Made by a program: the position numbers and the translations under genes. A stretch of 64,000 nucleotides of DNA from Desulfobacula sp. (lineage in GTDB: Bacteria; Desulfobacterota; Desulfobacteria; Desulfobacterales; Desulfobacteraceae). Shown here one piece after another: positions 15,933-33,215 of this stretch. Location: assembly GCA_023701135.1 (NCBI GenBank), contig JAMPXP010000017.1:1-64000 (forward strand), read 5' to 3'. Position 1 is the first letter of the stretch, and each line of letters starts with the position of its first letter. The notes under the pieces were generated by a model. That model worked only from the letters and a program-made list of their open reading frames with translations. It had not been told where the DNA came from and made no database searches.

Positions 15933-16340
15933 ATGGATGATACGATTTCAAAACTGAAGGCCTTGGCGGATAAAAACCGGCTCAGGATCTTTTGCGCCCT
16001 GGTCCGCCACGAGGAATTGTGCGCCTGCCAGATCACGGAATTGCTCCAGGTGACCGGTGCCACAGCCTCCCGTCATTTGAGCATCCTGGTTGCTGCCGGG
16101 CTGCTGAAAAGCCGGAAGGACGGCCGGTGGGTGCTTTTCAGCCTGGACCGGTCCGGCAACGGGTTCGACGGCATCCTGCAATGGCTTGATCCTGAACTCC
16201 GGATCTCTTTGACCCTTCAAAATGACCTTGACGCCCTAGTGCGGATCACGGGGCTCTCCCGTGAGGATCTTTGCAGACAACAACGGGGGGAGGCCTGCTG
16301 CCCCATCCCAAAAGGAGCCCATACCAAAAAGGAGTCATAA
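15933..16340 (+). CDS. arsR: ArsR-family metalloregulator
   Basis: A 135-residue winged-helix repressor of the ArsR/SmtB family that probably represses this operon and is released by arsenite. It has LKALADKNRLRIFCAL at the start, the metal-site segment ELCACQITELL (a CxC in the alpha-3 helix, as in ELCVC of classic ArsR), and the recognition helix TGATASRHLSILVAAGLL. The C-terminal extension carries further cysteines (DLCRQQ and EACCP), which might add a ligand. Its TAA stop shares one base with the arsC ATG (TAATG), so arsR and arsC are coupled. Promoter and dyad lie 20-70 bases upstream. Confidence 0.92.
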   Translation: MDDTISKLKALADKNRLRIFCALVRHEELCACQITELLQVTGATASRHLSILVAAGLLKSRKDGRWVLFSLDRSGNGFDGILQWLDPELRISLTLQNDLDALVRITGLSREDLCRQQRGEACCPIPKGAHTKKES

Positions 16341-16780
16341 TGGATAAACTGAAAATATTATTTCTGTGTACGGGGAATTCATGCCGGAGCCAGATGGCGG
16401 AAGGCTGGACCCGCAAGCTCAAGGGGGATAGGATCCAAGCCTTTTCCGCCGGGGTTGAAACCCACGGACTGAATCCCCATGCCGTCGCCGTCATGGCCGA
16501 GGCCGGAGTTGACATTTCCGGGCAGAGATCCAAACATGTCAATGAATTCGCGGGCCAGGAGTTTGATGCGGTGGTGACGGTCTGTGACCATGCCCGCGAA
16601 TCCTGCCCCTATTTTCCGGCATCCTGCAAACGCGTCCATGCCGGCTTTGTCGATCCGCCGGCCCTGGCCCGGGAGATCGCGGCACAAGGGGGGGATGAAG
16701 CGGCCCAACTGGATGGCTACCGGAAGGTGAGAGACGACATCAGGGCTTTTGTGGAAGCCCTGCCGGACAATATTTTATAA
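16340..16780 (+). CDS. arsC: Arsenate reductase, thioredoxin-coupled LMW-PTP type
   Basis: Reduces arsenate to arsenite with thioredoxin as electron donor. At 146 residues it is a low-molecular-weight phosphatase fold. The P-loop nucleophile Cys lies in [15 protein letters not shown] (CX5R) near residue 10. The relay cysteines are in [14 protein letters not shown] near 83-90. The DPP acid segment near 108 is followed by [11 protein letters not shown]. The start is ATG 16340 after AAAAAGGAGTCATA; an earlier in-frame ATG at 16271 would run into arsR. The Cys triad places it with S. aureus pI258 ArsC rather than the glutaredoxin-linked R773 type. Confidence 0.95.
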
Positions 16781-16791
16781 GGAGACCAGAG

Positions 16792-17898
16792 GTGAATAAC
16801 AAGAGCATCAATTCCGACAAAACAAATCCAAACATCTGCCCCACAGCCCGGCCCGTCGGCAAGGGGCTTTCCTTCCTGGACCGGTTCCTGACCCTGTGGA
16901 TATTCGCCGCCATGGCCCTGGGGATCTGCGCCGGCTGGCTTGTGCCCGCTGTCAAGAATTTTGTCAATTTATTTACGGTGGGAACCACCAATATCCCCAT
17001 TGCCGTGGGCCTCATCCTCATGATGTATCCGCCCTTTGCCAAGGTGAGATACGAGGACATGCCCGATGTTTTCAGAAATATCCGGGTTCTTTGCCTGTCC
17101 CTGGTCCAGAACTGGGTGGTGGGCCCCTTTCTGATGTTTTTCATTGCCATCATCTTTCTCCGGGATTATCCCGAATATATGGCAGGGCTGATCATGATCG
17201 GCCTGGCCCGGTGCATCGCCATGGTCATTGTCTGGAATGAGCTGGCCAAGGGGGATACCGAATATGCCGCCGGTCTGGTGGCCTTTAACTCCGTTTTCCA
17301 GGTGGTTTTTTTCAGTGTCTATGCCTGGTTTTTCCTCACGGTGCTGCCGCCCCTCTTCGGGATCCAGGCCACGGCCGTGGCCATCACCATCGGCCAGATC
17401 GCCGAAAGCGTGTTTATCTACCTGGGCATCCCCTTTATCGCCGGTGCCCTGACCCGGTTTATCGGGGTCAAGGCCATGGGCCGGGAACGGTATCATGCCG
17501 TGGTGGTCCCCAGGATCAGCCCCCTGACCCTGATTGCCCTGCTCTTTACCATTGTCCTCATGTTCAGCCTCAAGGGGGATCTCATCGTTCAGATTCCCAT
17601 GGATGTGGTGAGAATTGCCGTCCCGCTGCTGGTGTATTTTGTGATCATGTTCCTGGTGTCTTTTTATATGGGGAAAAAGGTGGGGGCAGATTACAAAAAG
17701 ACGGCCACCCTTGCCTTTACGGCCGCCAGCAACAATTTTGAGCTGGCCATTGCCGTGGCCATCGCCGTCTTCGGCCTCAATTCCGGCGCAGCCTTTGCCG
17801 CCGTTATCGGACCCCTGGTGGAAGTTCCGGTCATGATCGGCCTTGTGAACGTGGCCTTTTTTTTCCAGCGCCGGTATTTCCGGGAGAAGCTTTCATAA
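16792..17898 (+). CDS. acr3: Arsenite efflux permease ACR3
   Basis: Exports arsenite made by ArsC. The 368-residue protein begins at GTG 16792 with GGAGACCAGAG just upstream. It has about ten membrane segments typical of the ACR3/BART superfamily. The conserved segments [29 protein letters not shown] (with the ARC cysteine that binds arsenite), [18 protein letters not shown] and [17 protein letters not shown] are all visible. It is the third gene of arsR-arsC-acr3, separated from arsC by 11 bases. No clear terminator follows; the next promoter starts 33 bases downstream. Confidence 0.96.
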
Positions 17899-23618: not shown

Positions 23619-24092
23619 TTAACAGCATTTTCCCCCCAGCAGTTTTGACATGGCCTGCTCCGCCGGTGAAAGGGGCTTGGGCGAATCGAAAACAATTTTT
23701 ACCGGAAGTTTCAAAGTAAGCCTGGCCGCATATTTGACGGCGGCCACGTCTCCGGGAACAGCATCTTCGAGGGATAGGGACCGGCCCCCATCCTTTTGGA
23801 TGGCCAGTTGGCTGACAATGATGTGTTCCTTCACCGGGACCCCGGCATTTTCCAGGATGGTCCTGGCGCAGGCCGTTTCGCATCCGTCAAGGACAATGAT
23901 CTGTTCCGTATCTTTTGCAGATTGCACTAACCCGCTCTTGCCTGTGGCGATTCCGGCCAGGCAGAACAACTCGCCGAACCCTTCTTTTGTCATCTCCACC
24001 GCAGCCTGGTTGGCGAGCCCGCCTTCCCTGGAGGCTCCGGAACAGGTCAGGATCATGATGTCCTGTCCGTTGCAATTGCAATCCGTTGCCAT
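23619..24092 (-). CDS. DGC-domain putative zinc-binding protein (distal copy)
   Basis: A 157-residue cytoplasmic protein of the DGC family, named for the conserved Asp-Gly-Cys in IVLDGCETACARTILE near residue 70. Other conserved parts are MILTCSGASREGGLANQAA, ELFCLAGI and a C-terminal Cys pair (GGKCC). The N terminus adds DCNCNG. The conserved cysteines are thought to bind zinc; no enzyme activity is established. It is the last gene of the leftward redox/permease series and starts at ATG 24092 just after the MFS stop. A paralogue lies at 30845-31264 near the front of the same series, so two DGC proteins flank the set. Confidence 0.85.
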   Translation of the reverse strand: MATDCNCNGQDIMILTCSGASREGGLANQAAVEMTKEGFGELFCLAGIATGKSGLVQSAKDTEQIIVLDGCETACARTILENAGVPVKEHIIVSQLAIQKDGGRSLSLEDAVPGDVAAVKYAARLTLKLPVKIVFDSPKPLSPAEQAMSKLLGGKCC

Positions 24093-24094
24093 GG

Positions 24095-25294
24095 TTAATC
24101 TCCCGGCCGGCTCTCGGCCTGCATGACCGTCAGAGGTGACAGGCCCGGGGTTTTGATCAGGAAAAAACTGAGGCAGAGGGTGATGCCCAGCATTACGCCA
24201 TAGATGAGGAAAAGCGAGGGCAATCCATGGGCCGATGCAATTTTCCCGCCCAGGGCCGTTCCGACCCCACCCCCGCCCATGAAGCAGAAAGCCACCAGGG
24301 ACATGGCGGTTCCGCGGGCTTTCTGGGCAAATTCAGTGGCCCGGGTCAAAAGGGTGGAATGGGCGAAGATAAACCCGAGTCCCAGGAGGCCTATACCAAA
24401 GATGAGCAAGCCGATGGATTGCCCGGAAAAATAAATTACCAGATCTGCGGTCAGGGCAAGGGTCAGCCCCAGGGTCAACAGGGCCCGCGGGCCTGTTTTG
24501 AGAACCAGTTTTCCGCCCAGGCGGCCGCCCACAATGGACATCACGCCAAAGGTCGTCATGACGGCCCCGATGCTCAGATAATTGAAGGCGTATGTTTTGG
24601 ATATATAGGCACCCAGAAAAGAAAAACTGCCGATGATGAACATGCCTTCCAGCAGGATCAGGATATAGGTAAAAAGGCTTTTTTTCTGGGATAGCAGCTC
24701 TTTGTAGGGCTTCAGGAAGCGGCTCCGGGGATTCCGGGTATCGGGCAGGTGCCTGTAGTTTTTCAGGATCAGGACCAGGGGAATGAGAGAGAGAACCGCA
24801 TACACGGCAAAGACTCCCCGCCAGCTCAGAAAATAGGAGATGGCACCGCCGGTGATCATGCTCAGGCCCTGTCCCAGAAAGGCAATGCCCATAAAGGTGC
24901 CGATGGCCATCTGGCGTTTTTCAAGGGGCACCAGGTCCCCGATCAGGGCTATGCAGATGGGCATGACGGCGGCGGCAAAAATACCGGTCAGGGCCCTGTA
25001 AACGGAAAGCCCGTTCAGGCTTCCGGCCAGGGCGCACAGGCCCGTGGCCACGGTAAAAAACAGGATGGCAAAGGTGATGATCTGTTTTTTTCCGAACCGA
25101 TCGGCCAGGGGGCCGTAAATGATTTGGAAAATCCCAAAGGGGATCATATAGGCGGAAATCAGGATGCCTGCGTTTTCAACGGGGATGCCGAGGCTTTGGG
25201 CAATGGCCGGGAGAATCGGGGAGACCACCCAGTTGTCTGCCATAACGATGAATCCGAGGAGCCCCAGGAGGATAATGATTTTATTATTGTTCAT
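24095..25294 (-). CDS. MFS exporter
   Basis: A 399-residue major facilitator protein with about 12 membrane segments. The motif A region GPLADRFGKKQIITFAI near residue 62 and the opening LLGLLGFIVMADNWVVSPILPAIAQSLG are typical of DHA1-type drug:H+ antiporters. In the second half GARLGGKLVLKTGPRA-like sequence marks the repeated loop. It lies between a UPF0718 permease and a DGC protein in a tight same-strand series, with AAGGACC before the ATG. The substrate is unknown; the setting suggests efflux of the same metalloid or thiol compound the series handles. Confidence 0.85.
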   Translation of the reverse strand: MNNNKIIILLGLLGFIVMADNWVVSPILPAIAQSLGIPVENAGILISAYMIPFGIFQIIYGPLADRFGKKQIITFAILFFTVATGLCALAGSLNGLSVYRALTGIFAAAVMPICIALIGDLVPLEKRQMAIGTFMGIAFLGQGLSMITGGAISYFLSWRGVFAVYAVLSLIPLVLILKNYRHLPDTRNPRSRFLKPYKELLSQKKSLFTYILILLEGMFIIGSFSFLGAYISKTYAFNYLSIGAVMTTFGVMSIVGGRLGGKLVLKTGPRALLTLGLTLALTADLVIYFSGQSIGLLIFGIGLLGLGFIFAHSTLLTRATEFAQKARGTAMSLVAFCFMGGGGVGTALGGKIASAHGLPSLFLIYGVMLGITLCLSFFLIKTPGLSPLTVMQAESRPGD

Positions 25295-25325: not shown

Positions 25326-26393
25326 TTAAATGATCATATTGAATAAATAGCCGACAAACAGGATGCCCGACCCCACCACCCCGATAAAGACGGCGATGAG
25401 CCTGGGTTTCAGGACTTTTCTCAGGATGACCATTTCGGGCAGAGACAGGGCGATGACACTCATCATGAAGGCCAGGACAGTCCCCAGGGCCGCCCCTTTG
25501 CCCAGGAGGGCTTCCACCACCGGGATGATCCCGGCGGCATTGGAATACATGGGGATGCCGATGGCCACGGACAGGGGAACCGACCACCAGGACCCTTTGC
25601 CCATGATGGAGGCCATGACGCCTTCGGGAACGAATCCGTGGATACCGGCGCCCACGGCAATCCCGAGGATGACATAGATCCAGACCCGGCCGATGATCTC
25701 TTTCACCGCATCCCAGCCGTACCGGATGCGGTCGTTCCAGGTCAGTCGTTCTTCTTCCATCTGCACGGCGGTAACATTGAGCTGGGTGACCCAGTCTTCG
25801 ATATGGTTTTCCATTTTCAGGCGGCCGATGACCCACCCGGCGGCAACGGCTATGAAAAGCCCGGTTCCCATATAGATGGCTGCCACCTTCCAGCCCAGAA
25901 GCCCGTAGAGGAGGCCCAGGGCGATTTCATTCACCATGGGGGCTGCGATCAGGAATGAAAAGGTCACTCCCAGGGGAATCCCAGCCGTGACAAAGCCGAT
26001 AAACAGGGGAACGGCCGAACAGGAGCAAAAGGGCGTGACGATTCCCAGGAGGGCGGCCAGGATATTACCGGCAAATTCACTTTTACCGGAAAGAAAGGCC
26101 CGGGTTTTTTCAGGGGTGAAAAAGCTGCGGATAATACCCACCCCGAATACCACGATGGCCAGGAGCATCATAACCTTGGGGGTGTCATAGAGGAAAAATT
26201 CCACCGAAGCTCCCAGGTGGGACCCGGCCTCTATGGGCAGCAGGGTGTAGGTGAGCCAGGCGGACAGGCCGGGCAGCATCCTGTAGATCGTCCACCAGAG
26301 ATACACGCCGAAGGCTCCCATGGCCAGGTTTAACGCCATCATTTTTTTTGTTTTTTTCTCATCCTGGATGAGGTCGGTTATTTTAGAGTCCAT
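25326..26393 (-). CDS. UPF0718/ArsP-type permease (distal copy)
   Basis: A 355-residue permease of the YraQ/DUF318 family, which includes ArsP, an exporter of trivalent organoarsenicals. The family signature is CSCSAVPLFIGFV near residue 123, followed by PLGVTFSFLIAAPMVNEIAL. The second half has a matching segment, AVGAGIHGFVPEGV then PMYSNAAGIIPVVEAL. About eight to ten hydrophobic segments are present, with a soluble loop at roughly 195-225. Start ATG 26393 follows AAAGGACC. It is distinct from the second UPF0718 permease at 31611-32783 in the same series. The CSCS cysteines are the probable metalloid or thiol contact. Confidence 0.85.
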   Translation of the reverse strand: MDSKITDLIQDEKKTKKMMALNLAMGAFGVYLWWTIYRMLPGLSAWLTYTLLPIEAGSHLGASVEFFLYDTPKVMMLLAIVVFGVGIIRSFFTPEKTRAFLSGKSEFAGNILAALLGIVTPFCSCSAVPLFIGFVTAGIPLGVTFSFLIAAPMVNEIALGLLYGLLGWKVAAIYMGTGLFIAVAAGWVIGRLKMENHIEDWVTQLNVTAVQMEEERLTWNDRIRYGWDAVKEIIGRVWIYVILGIAVGAGIHGFVPEGVMASIMGKGSWWSVPLSVAIGIPMYSNAAGIIPVVEALLGKGAALGTVLAFMMSVIALSLPEMVILRKVLKPRLIAVFIGVVGSGILFVGYLFNMII

Positions 26394-26464: not shown

Positions 26465-27163
26465 CTATTGGAAAATATTTCCAAAGACACGGATGGGAAT
26501 TTTTCTGGATGTGTCGGTCCAGATGGTAATGATATCTGTATAGAGTCCGGGTTCTTTTTTGATGTTTTCAACAATGAGTTCGTAACGGGCCGGGTTTGCC
26601 GGGTCGTTTTTTTTGACCTCAAACCGGATGTTTTTGCCGTCCCGAGCAGTGGCCTGGGCGACTTTAAAATTTGTTTCTGGATCTGCAGGCGTGATGGTCA
26701 TGGCGGCGGATAGGGTCTCTCCGGCTTTTCCACTCAGTTCAATATGGCCGGGGTCGAGAAGGGCAAAGGCTTTGACCTGGCCGACCAGTTCCAGTCGAAT
26801 CAAGGGTTGGGCCGGGTCATTGGTATGAATTTTCATTATTTTTCTGACGCTGTGTCCGCCATAGCCATGGGTGGACAATGAAATGGCGATTTTTCCTTCG
26901 CTTCCAGGAAGGATGCGCTTCTCGCTTGAAGCTGCCGTGCACCCTCAGTCAGTGTCTATCTTAAGGATTTCCAGGGGGGCGGTTCCCTTATTTTTCACCA
27001 TAAAATCATGGGTCACCGTATCCCCTTCCCAAACGGATTCAAAATTGAACATCTGCTCCGTTACAACAGCTTCGGGTTTCTGGTCGGCCGGGGCAGGCCC
27101 CGGAAAAACGGTGAGAAGTGCAATCATCAGAAACATAGCAATTGCGGCGGATTTTTTTTTCAT
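26465..27163 (-). CDS. DUF1573 protein, candidate selenoprotein (in-frame TGA at Sec73)
   Basis: Read through one TGA, this is a complete 232-residue DUF1573 protein. A signal peptide (FLMIALLTVFPGPAPA) is followed by EQMFNFESVWEGDTVTHDF and KNKGTAPLEILKIDTD. The TGA at 26947-26945 is followed in the same frame by GCTAASSEKRILPGSEGKI and IHTNDPAQPLIRLELVGQV. DUF1573 proteins normally carry SCGCT at this point, so the TGA replaces exactly the first Cys of CGC, giving D-U-G-C-T. Both sides of the TGA keep frame and family similarity, and a hairpin follows it. I infer selenocysteine; a nonsense mutation or sequencing error remains possible. It sits between MauE-like and permease genes in a thiol-redox series, fitting a redox-active UGC motif in the periplasm. 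Confidence 0.8.
26911..26947 (-). promoter_or_regulatory. Candidate bacterial SECIS hairpin after TGA codon
   Basis: Directly after the TGA (26947-26945) the mRNA can form an outer stem GGGUGC/GCAUCC and a perfect inner stem GCUUC/GAAGC with the six-base loop AAGCGA. The apical loop begins 18 bases after UGA, inside the usual bSECIS distance. The loop has its G at position 4, not in the first two positions as in the common consensus, and there is a 6-base bulge on the 5' side. Confidence 0.5.
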
Positions 27164-27181: not shown

Positions 27182-27640
27182 TTAAACAATATCAATTTGA
27201 TTTTTATCATAACCGTTTTTTTTATATAAGGTCAAGGCTGCCAGGCCCAGGGCCAGGCACAAAAACAGACCGTCCCTTGCCAGGGTCAGTTTATCCATGG
27301 GGCCTTCCTCCGGACTAGTGGAAAAGCAGCCGCAATTTATGTCCAGGCCTCTGGCCAGGTTAAACATAATGAGCCCCATGAAAATGGTCATTAAAATGGC
27401 AACAAGGCTTGAGGCTCCCATCATCCATCGTTCGAGGATGAGGCAGAACCCCAGGATCAGCTCCAGCCAGGGGAGAATCAGGGCCGTGAGATTGATGAGG
27501 GCGTCGGGCAGAACCTGGTAATTATAGACGGCTTGCGCGAACGCCCAGGGATTACACTGCTTGTCCAGGCTGGCATAAATAAAGACCGCTCCCAGCACTA
27601 TCCGGGCTGAATGATAAAAAAAACGGGAAGATGGATTCAA
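27182..27640 (-). CDS. MauE/DoxX-like membrane redox protein
   Basis: A 152-residue membrane protein with about four helices, of the MauE/DoxX-like group (methylamine utilisation-type). It has DKQCNPWAFAQAVYNYQVLP near residue 26, a pattern seen in these proteins, ALILPWLELILGFCLI in the second helix and NLARGLDINCGCFS near 100, whose CxC probably takes part in disulfide exchange. It begins at TTG 27640 with AAGGAG seven bases upstream, a few bases after the rhodanese stop. MauE partners with thioredoxin-like proteins in other systems, which matches the two thioredoxins and CcdA-like protein in this series. Confidence 0.82.
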   Translation of the reverse strand: MNPSSRFFYHSARIVLGAVFIYASLDKQCNPWAFAQAVYNYQVLPDALINLTALILPWLELILGFCLILERWMMGASSLVAILMTIFMGLIMFNLARGLDINCGCFSTSPEEGPMDKLTLARDGLFLCLALGLAALTLYKKNGYDKNQIDIV

Positions 27641-27652
27641 GGCGTTCTCTCC

Positions 27653-28159
27653 TTATTTATCAGGGGTTTCTATGGGCAGGTTGTTTTCCGTCCAGACGGT
27701 CCAGCCGTTGACCAGGACCCTGGCCTCTGCAAACCCCATGTTTTTGAGGAACAGGGCCAGCTCATGGCTCAGGTTGCAGGATTCTCCGTCACAATAGGTG
27801 ATGACCGGGGTTTGGCGGTCCAATCCGGGGACAACCTGTTGGAAATGGTCATCCACCTCATACCAGGGAAGACTCTTTGCCCCCTTTATATGGCCTTCGT
27901 CAAAAAGGGCTTTGTCTCTTGCATCCAGGAAAACTGCTTTGTTTTCCCTGAAAAGGGCTTCCGCTTCAGGAAGGGAGATGGCCAGGGAGTTGCCGCCATC
28001 CTCCGCCATCCTTGATTCCGCAGACCAATCCTGGACAAAGGGGATGGAATCGGGTCTGATCAGGTTGACGGCCAGGCCTGCCGCCACGGCCAAGAGGAGG
28101 ATGAAGCCGGCCTCTTGAAGGGCTTTCATCAGGTTCTGTCTTAAAACAACGGAGGGCAT
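27653..28159 (-). CDS. Membrane-anchored rhodanese-domain protein
   Basis: A 168-residue protein with one N-terminal helix (AGFILLLAVAAGLAVNLI) and a single rhodanese domain (about 62-160). The active loop is ITYCDGESCNLSHELA near residue 122, with the catalytic Cys in YCDGESC and a second Cys at the end of the loop. Rhodaneses carry sulfane sulfur as a persulfide; here the domain would face the periplasm. AAGGAGCCACCC precedes ATG 28159. It lies between an Fe-S protein and the MauE-like gene, so it may supply or remove sulfane sulfur (or selenium) in the same pathway. Confidence 0.88.
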   Translation of the reverse strand: MPSVVLRQNLMKALQEAGFILLLAVAAGLAVNLIRPDSIPFVQDWSAESRMAEDGGNSLAISLPEAEALFRENKAVFLDARDKALFDEGHIKGAKSLPWYEVDDHFQQVVPGLDRQTPVITYCDGESCNLSHELALFLKNMGFAEARVLVNGWTVWTENNLPIETPDK

Positions 28160-28169
28160 GGGTGGCTCC

Positions 28170-28694
28170 TTAGCATTCCAGGTTAAAACGGCTCATATAA
28201 GCGGACAGTTTCCGGCCTTCTTCAGCTCCGATGCCGGGACAGTCTCCGGGGCCCTTGGCCCCTTCGGCCACCTTGGTGGCAAAGACCATGCAGGTGGGCT
28301 GGCCGCATTCCCGGCAATTGGTTTTGGGCAGAAGTTTCAGGATCTCAATGATACCGGGTCTGGGCAGGCCGGTATAAGAGGGGGTGATGGTGTCCTTTTT
28401 CTCCCAGGCGGAATTGATTTCCGCTTTCAGCCATTCCACTATTTTTCTGGCCTCGGCTTCATCGTTCAGGGCATTGACGGCGATTTTTTTGCCGTGGACC
28501 GTGATCAGTTTTCCCTGGGCCCGGAAAGTGACGGCGGGCGGGTCATTCAGGTATTCAAAGCCACCCAGGACGGCGTTCAGATAGGGCAGGGCCCCGCTGA
28601 CATCCTGGCCCAGATGGGCAAAGCAGTGGACTCCTTTGGCATCGGCCTGGCATTTGGATTTGAATATTTCAAGGGTATAATCTTCCAGCAACAT
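28170..28694 (-). CDS. 4Fe-4S domain protein
   Basis: A 174-residue cytoplasmic protein. The C-terminal part has TNCRECGQPTCMVFATKVAEG and GDCPGI, the CX2CGX3CX16C-like pattern of the 4Fe-4S domain found at the N terminus of the corrinoid iron-sulfur protein and in related redox proteins. The N-terminal half (FKSKCQADAKGVHCFAHLGQDVSGALPYLNAVLGGFEY) is shared with small Fe-S proteins of anaerobes that I know only as hypothetical. The start is ATG 28694 after GAGGACC; an upstream extension to 28868 is proline-rich and overlaps the CcdA-like gene. It may pass electrons to the CcdA-like protein. Confidence 0.82.
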   Translation of the reverse strand: MLLEDYTLEIFKSKCQADAKGVHCFAHLGQDVSGALPYLNAVLGGFEYLNDPPAVTFRAQGKLITVHGKKIAVNALNDEAEARKIVEWLKAEINSAWEKKDTITPSYTGLPRPGIIEILKLLPKTNCRECGQPTCMVFATKVAEGAKGPGDCPGIGAEEGRKLSAYMSRFNLEC

Positions 28695-28716
28695 ATGGTC
28701 CTCTTTTTGTGTTTGA

Positions 28717-29424
28717 TCAAGCGGTAATAAAGGGGTTAATGATAAAATACAGGCCCAGAAGCCCCACCAGGGTTCCGGCCCCTTTGCGGAACCAGGTGCC
28801 TGCGCCTTGCCAGGCGGTATTTTCCATGAGTTTCCGGACGGCGGCGGCGCTGCTCCCCGCAACGGCAATGGGAAGGCAGTGGCCCATGCCGAAAAGAACG
28901 ATCAAAAGGATCCCGGTCATGACTTTTTCCTGGACCGTGATGACGGCCAGGATGGGCGCAATAAATCCGAAGGTGCAGGAGCCGGACAGGATGCCATAGG
29001 CGAGTCCCAGGACAAAGGCCCCGGTCATACCTTTGAGTTTCAGCCGGTATAAAAGCCCGCCGGACAGGGAACATTTTTCAACACCCAGCATGCCCAGGGC
29101 CACCCAGATCAGGATGGCGCCCATGAGGATCTGCCAGTAATTGCCCACATCCCCCAGCATCCGTCCCAGAAGGGCGCAGATACTGCCGATGACGGCGATG
29201 GTAATAAACAGGCCCAGGGTGAAAAGGATGGAATATACCCCTGCCTGCCGGGGCTGGACCATCCTGTCCTGGCCTCCGACATAGCCCACGATCAGGGGAA
29301 TGGAGGCCATGTGGCAGGGACTCAGCAGCACGCTGACCATGCCCCAGATGAAACATCCGGCAGCCGCCAGGAGGGTTCCGCCCGTAATCCATTGGTTGAC
29401 GGTTAAAAAAATCTGATCCAGCAT
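28717..29424 (-). CDS. CcdA/DsbD-type transmembrane electron carrier
   Basis: A 235-residue membrane protein of the CcdA/DsbD transmembrane family, with about six helices. The two conserved cysteines lie in LLSPCHMASIPLIVGYV near residue 36 and SGSCTFGFIAPIL near 150. They carry reducing equivalents from cytoplasmic thioredoxin to periplasmic thiols. AGGAGGAACG precedes ATG 29424. Placement right after two exported thioredoxins suggests it keeps them reduced. Cytochrome c maturation is an alternative use, but no ccs or ccm gene is present here. Confidence 0.9.
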   Translation of the reverse strand: MLDQIFLTVNQWITGGTLLAAAGCFIWGMVSVLLSPCHMASIPLIVGYVGGQDRMVQPRQAGVYSILFTLGLFITIAVIGSICALLGRMLGDVGNYWQILMGAILIWVALGMLGVEKCSLSGGLLYRLKLKGMTGAFVLGLAYGILSGSCTFGFIAPILAVITVQEKVMTGILLIVLFGMGHCLPIAVAGSSAAAVRKLMENTAWQGAGTWFRKGAGTLVGLLGLYFIINPFITA

Positions 29425-29432
29425 CGTTCCTC

Positions 29433-29882
29433 CTAGTCCTTTTTTTCCGGCGGGGAAGGAACTCCCATTTTTGTGAGTTGGGCCACGATGTCCTTCTCAC
29501 TCATGAAGCCTTCATGGCGGTACACTTCCGTTCCTGATGCATCATAAAAGATCTGGGTCGGGATGGCCCGGATCTTGTATTTGGGTGCCTGTTCCTTGTG
29601 TTTCCATACATCGATAAAGGCAATAACCGCCTTGTCCTGGTAATCGGCTTCAAGCTTGGCCATGATGGGGGCCATCATTTTACAGGGAATACATTCCGTG
29701 GCCCCGAGATCGATGAGGGTTACCATTCCTTTTACCGGCAGGCTTTCAAAATCAATACGGGTTCCGTGGGCGTTGGTTCCGGCAGACGAGTCGGCCCCGG
29801 CATCCTGATAGAATTGTGTTTTTACAAGGAGGATCACTGCAAAGGCAATGACACAGATGATAAGGAATCGGGCATGTTTCAT
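29433..29882 (-). CDS. Exported thioredoxin-fold protein (CIPC)
   Basis: A 149-residue protein with an N-terminal membrane anchor or signal (FLIICVIAFAVILLVKT) and a thioredoxin domain with active site GATECIPCKMMAPI near residue 64, the IPTQIFYD cis-Pro segment and a C-terminal helix (SEKDIVAQLTKMG). CIPC in place of CGPC suggests a redox potential different from classic thioredoxin. Its ATG overlaps the previous gene's TAA by one base (TAATG). It closely resembles the thioredoxin half of that previous gene, so the pair arose by duplication. Confidence 0.9.
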   Translation of the reverse strand: MKHARFLIICVIAFAVILLVKTQFYQDAGADSSAGTNAHGTRIDFESLPVKGMVTLIDLGATECIPCKMMAPIMAKLEADYQDKAVIAFIDVWKHKEQAPKYKIRAIPTQIFYDASGTEVYRHEGFMSEKDIVAQLTKMGVPSPPEKKD

Positions 29883-30829
29883 TATTGAACCCCCATTTTT
29901 TGAAGCTGATCCAGCACTTCCTTTTCAGCAAAGAAGCCGGTGTGCCTGAATACCTCGTTTCCGTTTTTATCGAAAAAGACCTGGACCGGGATGGATTGGA
30001 TACCGAAACGGCCTGCCAGGATCTGCTTCTCACGGACATGGACAAATTCGACATTCAAGGTATCAGGGAATTTTTTTCTCAAATTGTCCAGGATGGGCTG
30101 CATCATATCACAGGGGATGCAGCCTGCGGCCCCGAATTCAATCATGCTGGGTTTTCCTGAAGATCTGGCCTTATCCACCGGGTTGTTCTTCATGATACTG
30201 TATTGGGTTTCCAGCCATTTGTGGTTGATCTGCAGACCATGGGCGTCTCCCAGGCCTTTGATATATCCCTGGATAGCCTCCTGTTTTTTTCTTTCCAGGA
30301 GAAAGCTTTTGATATTTTCCCGGACCTGATCAAAGGGGGCGCCCCCCATCATTTCCTTGTTTTCGTCATAAAAAACCTGGGCGTCTGTAGTGGTTACGGT
30401 GACCTCTTTCACCCGGGTGGCCAGGTAAGCACTGATAAGATCGCCTGGGTCTGCATTTTTATCCTGAATTCCGCTTTTCTGGGCTTCCTGGAGAAGGATC
30501 CGCGTAATAATGTCCTGGTCCAGGAGGAAAATCAGGTTTTCCTTAATCTGGTCCTGCAATTTCGGATCATACTGACTGAGGGAGGTTTCAAAGTCCTGAA
30601 GGGAAATTGAGATTCCGGTTCCGGTTTTCAGGAGCATGCCCCTCTCTGCTTCAACCAGCTCAGCAGATTTCAGAAACCGGTCGGAAAGCAGGGGGTACAC
30701 ATCCGAAACCGTTTTGGCCCGGGCCGCCCCGGCCGCAAAACAGAAGGCCGGGATGAGCAGCACCAGGATATGGATGAGGGGTTTGATCATGAAGCGTTTC
30801 ATCATGGGGTGTTTCATTATTGGGTGCAT
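29882..30829 (-). CDS. SurA-N-like chaperone domain fused to thioredoxin
   Basis: A 315-residue exported protein. A signal peptide (PLIHILVLLIPAFCFAAG) is followed by a helical region at about 50-205. Its TTTDAQVFYDENKEMM and FDQVRENIKSFLLERKKQEAI segments resemble the N-terminal chaperone domain of SurA/PpiD-type foldases. No parvulin isomerase domain follows. Instead residues 220-315 are a thioredoxin domain with AAGCIPCDMMQPIL and IPVQVFFDKNGNE. Such a fusion could bind an unfolded or thiol-bearing client and reduce it. The exact start is uncertain: the first ATG (30829) lies very close to AAAGGAA and several in-frame ATGs follow. It ends in a TAATG overlap with the next thioredoxin. Confidence 0.85.
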   Translation of the reverse strand: MHPIMKHPMMKRFMIKPLIHILVLLIPAFCFAAGAARAKTVSDVYPLLSDRFLKSAELVEAERGMLLKTGTGISISLQDFETSLSQYDPKLQDQIKENLIFLLDQDIITRILLQEAQKSGIQDKNADPGDLISAYLATRVKEVTVTTTDAQVFYDENKEMMGGAPFDQVRENIKSFLLERKKQEAIQGYIKGLGDAHGLQINHKWLETQYSIMKNNPVDKARSSGKPSMIEFGAAGCIPCDMMQPILDNLRKKFPDTLNVEFVHVREKQILAGRFGIQSIPVQVFFDKNGNEVFRHTGFFAEKEVLDQLQKMGVQ

Positions 30830-30844
30830 CTTCCTTTAAAAATG

Positions 30845-31264
30845 TTATCCGCAGCAGTTTGCCTTTTTCGGAGTCAAGGCCGTTCCGGGCTTGATGCCGC
30901 AGGCATCGAAAACCGCAGACTTCACCCTGGCGATATCTTCGGCCCTGAGGCTGAGATTTTTATTTTTTTCAATGCCCAGTTCGGTAATCACCAGATGGTT
31001 TTTCAAGGGCACCTTGGCCTGTTCAAGGATGGCCTTGGCACAACCCACAGGGCAGCCGTCAATGGCTACCATGGTTTCCACATCCCATGCCGACTGAACA
31101 AAGCCGCTCAGTTGGGCTCCGATTCCGGCCAGGCAAAACATTTTGCCGACGCCTTCCCGGGTCAGTTCAATGGCAGCCTGGTTTGAAAGCTGGCCCACGT
31201 TGGATCCGCCTGAACAGGCCAGGATCATGATATTGCCGTTGGATGCACAAAAGTCTTCAGTCAT
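30845..31264 (-). CDS. DGC-domain putative zinc-binding protein (proximal copy)
   Basis: A 139-residue cytoplasmic DGC-family protein. It has MILACSGGSNVGQLSNQAA, KMFCLAGIGAQLSGFVQSA and the name-giving AIDGCPVGCAKAILEQA near residue 73, and ends in KKANCCG. The Cys positions match the distal copy at 23619-24092, so the two are paralogues within one gene series. AGGAGCGATAAA precedes ATG 31264. The conserved cysteines suggest soft-metal or metalloid binding, but that is inference. A wider 82-base gap separates it from the CPKC gene upstream. Confidence 0.87.
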   Translation of the reverse strand: MTEDFCASNGNIMILACSGGSNVGQLSNQAAIELTREGVGKMFCLAGIGAQLSGFVQSAWDVETMVAIDGCPVGCAKAILEQAKVPLKNHLVITELGIEKNKNLSLRAEDIARVKSAVFDACGIKPGTALTPKKANCCG

Positions 31265-31346: not shown

Positions 31347-31580
31347 TTATTTTTTCAGCCAGGCTTTGACATCCTCTTTTTTGGGAATCTTTCCCACACA
31401 TTTGACTTCCCCGTCCACCACCACGGCAGGGGTTCCGAAAACACCGTACCCGGCTATTTCCATGACACCGGTGACTTTTTCAATTTTTGCATCCACTCCG
31501 GTTTCGGTGACGGCCTCATTGACAATTTTTAGAGTCTGTTCGCATTTGGGGCAACCGGGCCCCAGTATTTTGATATCCAT
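31347..31580 (-). CDS. Small thioredoxin-like redox-active disulfide protein (CPKC)
   Basis: A 77-residue single-domain thioredoxin/glutaredoxin-like protein of the type named redox-active disulfide protein 2. The active site is LGPGCPKCEQTL near residue 9, with GTPAVVVDGEV as the cis-Pro segment and EDVKAWLKK at the C terminus. A conserved extra cysteine follows in VKCVGKIP. GAGGAGATTATT precedes the ATG. Genes for this protein commonly sit beside UPF0718 permeases and ArsR regulators, as here, where it follows the permease by 30 bases. A cytoplasmic partner that delivers or reduces the permease substrate is plausible. Confidence 0.92.
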   Translation of the reverse strand: MDIKILGPGCPKCEQTLKIVNEAVTETGVDAKIEKVTGVMEIAGYGVFGTPAVVVDGEVKCVGKIPKKEDVKAWLKK

Positions 31581-31610: not shown

Positions 31611-32783
31611 TTATCCGGCAATGACCCCGTAGATCATCCCGGCAAAGGTTGACAGTAAAATGATGATGGAACAAAAAACAAAGGTCTTTTTTGCCCCCAT
31701 GATCCCCCCGATGACCAGCATATTGGGCAGGGACAGGGCTGGGCCGGCCAGCAGCAGGGCCAGGGCAGGGCCCTTGCCCATGCCCGACCCGATCAGTCCC
31801 TGCAGGATCGGCACCTCGGTCAGGGTGGCAAAATACATGAAGGCTCCGGCCACGGAGGCAAATAAATTGGACCAGAGGGAATTGCCGCCCACAAGGGTTT
31901 GAATATACTGTTCCGGGATCAGTGCCGGGTGTCCCGGCCTGCCCAGGAGAAATCCGGCCACAATCACCCCGCCGAACAAAAGGGGGAAGATCTGTTTCAT
32001 GAATCCCCAGGTGGATTCCACCCAGCTTGCACGTTCTTCCTTTTTAAACCAGGCCTTTACCATCCAGGCCAGGGCAACCAGAAGAATGACCGTAATATAC
32101 CATTTGGCGGCAAAAATAGCCGGCCATAGACCGGTGGAACCCGGCGCGGGTTTGGCAAAGGCGGCAAAAACCAGGATCAGGACCATGGTCAAAAGATAGA
32201 TCCCGTCCTGGAAAAGGGTTCTTCCGCTGTCTTCTTCATCCGGAACATAGATCTGTCCTGCTGTCCTGGCTGCATCGTCCTTCCGGAAGATGAGGGCCAT
32301 GAGCAGGCCCGTGATGACGGCGAAAAGGACGGCGCCGATGGCCCGGGCCAGGCCGAGCTGCCATCCCAGGATTTTGGCCGTGAGGGTGATGGCCAGGACA
32401 TTGATGGCCGGGCCTGAATACAAAAAGGCCGTGGCCGGTCCGATACCGGCCCCCCGGGTATAGATCCCGGCAAAGAGCGGTAATACCGTGCAGGAGCATA
32501 CGGCCAGGATGGTACCGGAAATCGAGGCCACGGAATAGGAGAGAATTTTACCGGCCTGTGCCCCGAAATATTTCAGCACCGAAGCCTGGGACACAAAGAC
32601 TGCAATGGCTCCGGCGATGAAAAAGGCCGGGACCAGGCAGGTCAGGACATGCTCCCTGGCATATTCCTGGAGCATCATAAAGGCTTCCAGTCCGGACCGG
32701 CGGACCACCGGGTGGGACCAGGGAATAAAATAGGCCATGAGATACAGGCCCATGAGGGTGAATAATTTTGTCCGTTCTTTCAT
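31611..32783 (-). CDS. UPF0718/ArsP-type permease (proximal copy)
   Basis: A 390-residue permease of the DUF318/UPF0718 family with about eight to ten helices. The first half has ISGTILAVCSCTVLPLFAGIY near residue 88 and ATAFLYSGPAINVLAITLTA; the second half has YFATLTEVPILQGLIGSGMGKGPALALLLAGPALSLP. The paired half-motifs mark an inverted duplication. ArsP members export trivalent methylated arsenicals, but other members carry unknown substrates. AGGAGATCCTCCA precedes ATG 32783. It is the first gene after arsR and heads the redox/permease series, so it is likely the main transporter that ArsR controls. Confidence 0.87.
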   Translation of the reverse strand: MKERTKLFTLMGLYLMAYFIPWSHPVVRRSGLEAFMMLQEYAREHVLTCLVPAFFIAGAIAVFVSQASVLKYFGAQAGKILSYSVASISGTILAVCSCTVLPLFAGIYTRGAGIGPATAFLYSGPAINVLAITLTAKILGWQLGLARAIGAVLFAVITGLLMALIFRKDDAARTAGQIYVPDEEDSGRTLFQDGIYLLTMVLILVFAAFAKPAPGSTGLWPAIFAAKWYITVILLVALAWMVKAWFKKEERASWVESTWGFMKQIFPLLFGGVIVAGFLLGRPGHPALIPEQYIQTLVGGNSLWSNLFASVAGAFMYFATLTEVPILQGLIGSGMGKGPALALLLAGPALSLPNMLVIGGIMGAKKTFVFCSIIILLSTFAGMIYGVIAG

Positions 32784-32831: not shown

Positions 32832-33179
32832 TCAGTTCTTATTTAAAATATCGTTTCGATTAATCCCCGGCAACCGGCCGGCCACTTTCTTAATTTCAGG
32901 GTCATCGTTCAGCCAATGGCGCATATTTCCGATGAGGCTGGCGGCAAAGGGGCTCTGGGAACCGTCGGATACTTTATAATTCACCCAGAGCCCGTCTTTT
33001 TGAAAGGCAATGAGTCCAGCATCCTCCAGTATTTTCAGATGCTTGCTGGTGGTGGACTGGGCCTTGTCCAGGGCGGTCTGGATTTCGCACACGCACATGG
33101 TTTTATGCTGGAGCATTTTCAGTATTTTGACCCGTGCCGGGTCGGAAAGGGCCTTCATCACTTTGATAAATTCTTTCAT
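32832..33179 (-). CDS. ArsR-family regulator of the redox/permease series
   Basis: A 115-residue winged-helix repressor. It opens MKEFIKVMKALSDPARVKILKML and has the metal-site segment TMCVCEIQTAL (CVC in helix 3, the arsenite/antimonite site of classic ArsR) and the recognition helix AQSTTSKHLKILEDAGLI. I chose ATG 33179, which has AGGA seven bases upstream; the ATG two codons earlier abuts that site. The permease gene starts 48 bases downstream on the same strand. It is more distant from the ArsR at 15933, so the two may control separate sets. Inducer could be As(III), Sb(III) or an organoarsenical. Confidence 0.9.
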   Translation of the reverse strand: MKEFIKVMKALSDPARVKILKMLQHKTMCVCEIQTALDKAQSTTSKHLKILEDAGLIAFQKDGLWVNYKVSDGSQSPFAASLIGNMRHWLNDDPEIKKVAGRLPGINRNDILNKN

Positions 33180-33215
33180 GGTCATGTCCTATTTATTTAT
33201 ACATTCCGAATTAAT

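Follow-up and report, generated by a model that had tools for sequence, protein, structure and literature searches.

A DUF1573 gene of the OS_HP2 family with an in-frame TGA in an ArsR/ArsP operon of Desulfobacula sp.

A DUF1573 gene carrying one in-frame TGA was analysed in a 64,000-nucleotide stretch of contig JAMPXP010000017.1 of Desulfobacula sp., hereafter the window. On sequence evidence, it is a well-supported selenoprotein gene of the already described OS_HP2 family and not a new one. The whole reading, to which we assign a probability of about 0.6, is that a selenoprotein of this known family is encoded in an ArsR/ArsP operon, that its selenocysteine (Sec) would be read via a hairpin directly downstream of the UGA, and that the product would serve as a relay partner in metalloid handling. 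Taken by themselves, the decoding of the TGA as Sec and the membership in OS_HP2 are predicted with near certainty.

The DUF1573 gene, its family and predicted Sec decoding

The gene comprised the following features.

26465..27163, minus strand: predicted DUF1573/OS_HP2 selenoprotein gene, 232 residues, Sec as residue 73, stop TAG
26945..26947, minus strand: in-frame UGA, predicted to be read as Sec where CGC has its first Cys (codon alignment, 88 distinct sites)
27086..27163, minus strand: putative N-terminal signal peptide (by eye: MKKK, a hydrophobic stretch and APA before D)

The single TGA splits the DUF1573 frame into 72 amino acids upstream and 159 amino acids downstream to the TAG. The initial annotation had described a signal-peptide-like DUF1573 frame that is cut at 26945-26947 and resumes for 159 codons, with the TGA at the first Cys of the family CGC motif, giving D-U-G-C-T; both points were confirmed. 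ORF reading gave the same frame, and the PF07610 model scored 65.5 bits against the read-through frame, above the gathering cut-off of 26.1, whereas the separate halves scored 25.4 and 20.4 bits, both below it. The AlphaFold2 model of the protein, built with two sequences as input, was too poor for use (pLDDT 56, pTM 0.36), and a sequence search of solved structures returned one weak match, 2qsv (E 0.059). The product is very probably an exported protein with an Ig-like fold.

Comparison with NF041425 (OS_HP2 family (seleno)protein, NCBIfam) revealed a score of 128.8 bits against a curated cut-off of 100. The U/C-G-C motif lay at the aligned position of the family, as UGC in the window and as 71 TGA and 17 Cys forms among 88. 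According to the excerpts of the respective papers, DUF1573 with UGC is listed in selenoprotein tables citing Zhang & Gladyshev 2007 (PMC9312934, PMC13188914), OS_HP2 is given as pfam07610 and UxC with the figures 2, 2 and 354 (PMC2398784), and DUF1573 is also named in an iron-response table of a further paper. The claim of a new selenoprotein in the initial annotation was dropped in view of the NF041425 score and the first three papers. No tested feature distinguished the window protein from the family; its ArsR/ArsP operon setting was not found in the excerpted DUF1573/OS_HP2 literature. Neither a function for DUF1573/OS_HP2 nor ArsP alongside it occurred in the excerpts of PMC9312934, PMC13188914, PMC2398784 and the iron-response paper. 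ArsP and selenoprotein both occur as terms in at least one paper, on bioremediation (PMC10143001).

The codon at the Sec site was TGA in 71, TGC in 13 and TGT in four of 88 distinct aligned homologous contexts, and nothing else; this count omits loci without an alignment spanning the Sec column, contexts shorter than 90 nt and identical contexts. The Cys/TGA pairs that the initial annotation proposed to look for were thus found. Counted by source (60 regions, the locus L042 and the window), 61 of 62 aligned over the site, all with a TGA or a Cys codon. L042 was the one locus returned by a contig scan. A DUF1573 match was present in 171 of 193 relatives, and exactly one TGA was seen in most of their DUF1573 loci among the matches listed. 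Across the phylum, the OS_HP2 model matched 122 of 296 genomes, 36 of them above the cut-off, with both TGA and stop-free forms present. The locus L078 (G013:C104) is absent from the codon and neighbour counts, as no protein alignment crosses its Sec column; its DNA has the TGA, and two single-base gaps in the gene may reflect a pseudogene or an assembly error.

Of the Sec machinery, which the initial annotation had also proposed to look for, selA (612.9 bits), selB (352.9 bits) and tRNA-Sec (76.8 bits; anticodon tca confirmed) were present in the genome, all above their cut-offs. Because selA exceeded its cut-off in 180 of the 193 relatives, it was useless as a control across them. Four FDH-like matches in the same genome each contained one TGA, in a context resembling the FDH active site in three. 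General reassignment of TGA was rejected, since TGA serves as the normal stop codon in five of 26 window genes checked, including the ArsR and DsbD_TM genes of the same operon. A second DUF1573 gene of this genome (G000:C13:171444-171722; L044, L075) has one TGA, falls on another tree branch and adjoins a HAD-type hydrolase and a sulfate adenylyltransferase-like gene (both named by eye).

The ArsR/ArsP operon and a possible role

The genes around DUF1573 are listed in order of transcription.

32832..33185, minus strand: ArsR/SmtB metalloregulator (NF033788, 86.6 bits vs 55; PF01022)
31611..32783, minus strand: ArsP_1 permease (PF03773, 243.6 bits)
31347..31580, minus strand: 77-aa CPKC protein between ArsP and DGC (ORF below length filters)
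30845..31264, minus strand: DGC-domain protein (PF08859, 125.8 bits)
29882..30829, minus strand: protein with a C-terminal thioredoxin domain, CIPC (PF00085)
29433..29882, minus strand: thioredoxin-like protein with CIPC (PF00085); by eye, its N-terminus is hydrophobic and could be an anchor or a signal
28717..29424, minus strand: CcdA/DsbD-type electron-transfer membrane protein, DsbD_TM (PF02683, 52.2 bits)
28170..28868, minus strand: Fe-S protein, probably starting further downstream than the TTG given here (PF04060)
27653..28159, minus strand: rhodanese-like protein (PF00581)
27182..27640, minus strand: MauE-family membrane protein with NCGC (PF07291, 97.4 bits)
25326..26393, minus strand: second ArsP_1 permease (PF03773, 249.1 bits)
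24095..25294, minus strand: MFS transporter (PF07690)
23619..24092, minus strand: second DGC-domain protein (PF08859, 108.6 bits)

The same-strand run extended from ArsR (33185) to DGC (23619) with intergenic gaps mostly below 75 nt, in the order ArsR-ArsP-CPKC protein-DGC-Trx-Trx-DsbD_TM-FeS-rhodanese-MauE-DUF1573(Sec)-ArsP-MFS-DGC. The 77-aa CPKC protein resembles a small thioredoxin, judging from its appearance. A separate plus-strand ars locus was observed at 15933-17898 of the window, with an ArsR-type regulator (82.5 bits vs 55), a thioredoxin-type arsenate reductase (142.2 vs 174.3, below the cut-off) and ACR3 (451.2 vs 282.8).

The operon shared a rhodanese, a DsbD-type domain, a thioredoxin, an ArsR-type regulator and a selenoprotein with the Tso system, but its parts are separate genes, unlike the rhodanese/DsbD/Trx fusion TsoB. 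Assignment to Tso was rejected, as the best score was 44 against 805 for TsoB and 37.4 against 115 for the ArsR-type TsoR. Likewise, assignments to Sao and to the SO_0444 Cu/Zn efflux type were rejected; the two ArsP_1 proteins scored 135 and 105.2 bits against a SaoE cut-off of 325, and 97.6 and 105.1 bits in the Cu/Zn efflux comparison, far under the cut-off. An ArsR regulator and ArsP_1 permeases (PF03773 membership) are shared with ArsP-type metalloid operons, but no methyltransferase, ArsH or ArsI model matched among the operon proteins scanned.

The operon proteins of the window served as tblastn queries for assigning neighbours, so that distant versions may be missed. The assignment covered 60 rows, consisting of the window and 59 of 60 regions picked non-randomly from the matches listed (L042 not among them). 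At least three operon-type neighbour kinds on the same strand occurred at 20 of the 60 loci (18 TGA including the window, two Cys), and two kinds at one. A HAD-type hydrolase, named by eye, adjoined DUF1573 at 25 loci (24 TGA, one Cys), and 14 had neither neighbour type (four TGA, ten Cys). Gene order varied, with DUF1573 before ArsR in several loci and after MauE in others.

In the preferred reading, SelB and tRNA-Sec would decode the UGA as Sec with the help of the hairpin that follows it, and the exported Ig-like product would cycle its Sec-Gly-Cys between selenol/thiol and selenenylsulfide. In this operon, DUF1573-Sec would form the outer end of a reducing relay serving ArsR-controlled, ArsP-linked metalloid handling: electrons from the cytoplasm would reach DsbD_TM/CcdA, then the pair of thioredoxin-like proteins and MauE, and finally DUF1573-Sec. 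There it could maintain the transport machinery's thiols in the reduced state or, alternatively, bind the metalloid and pass it on. The proposed relay partners are favoured by a small margin. The metalloid role, suggested by the gene neighbourhood, is a tentative proposal with slightly less than even odds; it is not the role of the whole family, since 25 of the 60 loci adjoin a HAD-type hydrolase instead.

Those same hydrolase-linked copies would fit a selenoprotein with a general role in periplasmic redox maintenance, whose ars-type neighbours are incidental or serve copper, zinc or mercury, and the sub-threshold Cu/Zn efflux and SaoE scores of the permeases could be cited for such another metal. 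Against this, ArsR, ArsP, DGC, Trx and DsbD_TM are repeatedly found with the gene in different orders, and we regard the general role as the strongest competitor, with a substantial minority of the weight. Under the preferred metalloid reading, a family described, in the excerpted literature, as a selenoprotein without function obtains a testable role for one branch from the recurrent ArsR/ArsP/DGC/thioredoxin/DsbD_TM/MauE operon.

The hairpin downstream of the UGA

The candidate SECIS element has the following layout.

26907..26947, minus strand: UGA with a hairpin directly after it, comprising a lower stem, a 5-bp apical stem GCUUC/GAAGC and the loop AAGCGA, with 17 nt from UGA to loop

The nested hairpin that the initial annotation had placed right after the UGA matched the fold predicted for a 41-nt segment beginning with the UGA, at -15.6 kcal/mol, with nine of 200 shuffles as good (z -1.78). 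In the folding check suggested there, the hairpin was retained at 53 nt, where shuffled sequences folded about equally well (z -0.19, 83/200), and the minimum-energy fold of the 50 nt starting at the UGA was another structure. Given these results at 41, 50 and 53 nt, single-sequence folding was rejected as proof of a SECIS; folds of the window alone are weak evidence for the hairpin, and the family alignment is stronger. A search of the window with Rfam at gathering scores yielded no match but a tRNA.

Before pairing in the family was counted, contexts identical over the first 45 nt were reduced to one, which still left 71 TGA and 17 Cys forms. Over the seven apical pairs, 0.730 of cells paired in the TGA forms compared to 0.612 when permuted (sd 0.014); the maximum of 2000 permutations was 0.664, and none reached 0.730. 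In the Cys forms, a small set of 17, the corresponding values were 0.479 and 0.473, with no covariation. One of the seven pairs, 13-32, showed no covariation (z -1.1). An unguided scan of 5-bp stems within 60 nt from the codon ranked the hairpin stem first in the TGA forms (z 10.1, inflated because the permutation ignores relatedness), and the same scan in the Cys forms did not include it among the 14 stems listed. Lower-stem columns hardly vary and are hence little informative; the paired fraction of cells was 0.808 for the TGA forms and 0.612 for the Cys forms. All three core pairs were kept in 51 of 71 TGA forms compared to five of 17 Cys forms, and some of the 20 TGA forms without all core pairs have a shifted stem, as judged by eye. 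Mean fold energy was alike, at -15.7 kcal/mol in 46 TGA and -15.0 kcal/mol in 13 Cys contexts.

The canonical bacterial SECIS model, as excerpted from PMC13188914, specifies an apical loop of 3-9 nt, an upper stem of 4-16 bp, a position 16-37 nt from the UGA, an MFE of -7.5 or lower and a G at loop position 1 or 2. The window hairpin lies within the first four limits (loop 6, stem 5, distance 17, MFE -15.6 at 41 nt) but differs in lacking the G. This weak point had been noted correctly in the initial annotation, the loop being AAGCGA. At fixed columns, 15 of 71 TGA forms had a G at loop position 1 or 2 and 56 had none, and among the 51 TGA forms with core pairs, 10 had the loop G and 41 had none. 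As a SECIS candidate, the hairpin is compact, covaries and has the Cys forms as a built-in control, but it departs from the usual rule for the loop, and this G-less loop matters for gene finders that demand the G.

The absence of the G in 56 of 71 TGA forms would also suit a hairpin that is not the SECIS, with SelB relying instead on a G-looped element close by or at some distance downstream. Other G-looped stems of at least 4 bp at an allowed distance were drawable in 40 of 71 TGA and seven of 17 Cys forms, and at -5 kcal/mol or lower in 30 of 71 TGA forms vs one of 17 Cys forms. This excess possibly reflects only better pairing in general, as 63/71 TGA forms and 3/17 Cys forms have a stem at -5 or lower whatever its loop. 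No G-looped stem was found in the allowed range after the window UGA, and the conserved stem led the covariation ranking, with its distance constant and in the TGA forms only; a different SECIS is accordingly considered improbable. The conserved hairpin as the Sec signal remains our preferred reading. Since G-looped stems are drawable in the 40 TGA forms, a canonical element may exist in part of the OS_HP2 family, the window excepted. Predicted loops after the TGA in three of the FDH-like genes start with G (GGC, GGGCU and GGUCU, by eye from folds), so the SelB of this organism probably meets both G-loop and G-less hairpins. According to the excerpts of PMC13188914, a 2026 review, some putative elements fail the SECIS model, and distinct bacterial classes are suggested. 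A wider proposal, that an OS_HP2 branch is dedicated to ArsR-controlled export, with a Dsb-type relay feeding a periplasmic Sec-Gly-Cys that binds or reduces the metalloid, and that the family's G-less loop is an example of such a distinct class, appears rather unlikely as a whole.

Frame integrity and Sec/Cys exchange

Between the window and L042, dN/dS was 0.180 for the part upstream of the TGA and 0.217 for the part downstream, and the codon alignment with L077 gave 0.187 and 0.235; L079 and L080 were left out because dS was saturated after the TGA. A tree of 60 rows, whose bootstrap values are rough, required seven Sec/Cys changes compared to 11.9 for shuffled labels, five of them forced by well-supported branches.

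If the TGA ended a short product, the downstream part would be a separate gene with a TTG start at 26878, where a table-11 ORF of 137 aa does begin. This is very unlikely, as the stretch from TGA to TTG is conserved and holds the second Cys, the Cys-form homologues run uninterrupted in one frame, and each half fell below the Pfam cut-off. A sequencing or assembly error or a pseudogene, for which one assembly per genome behind the TGA call and the two gaps in L078 could be cited, can be dismissed, given that the same TGA is found in 71 distinct contexts, spread over many genomes within the order and the phylum, and that dN/dS stays low after it. Recoding rather than error is indicated by sites that are TGA or Cys only, low dN/dS on both sides, the Sec machinery and hairpin covariation specific to TGA forms. 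As far as sequence data can tell, the initial proposal of a Sec-containing, probably exported, redox-type DUF1573 protein is supported by the same evidence.

The loci L106 (TGA) and L108 (TGC) are sister operons that have their neighbours in common and are alike over much of the hairpin. Such similarity would be expected of a recent switch, and the pair likely represents one, the hairpin in the Cys form being a remnant. A natural Sec/Cys pair of this kind in the same operon would offer a way to measure what is gained with Sec.
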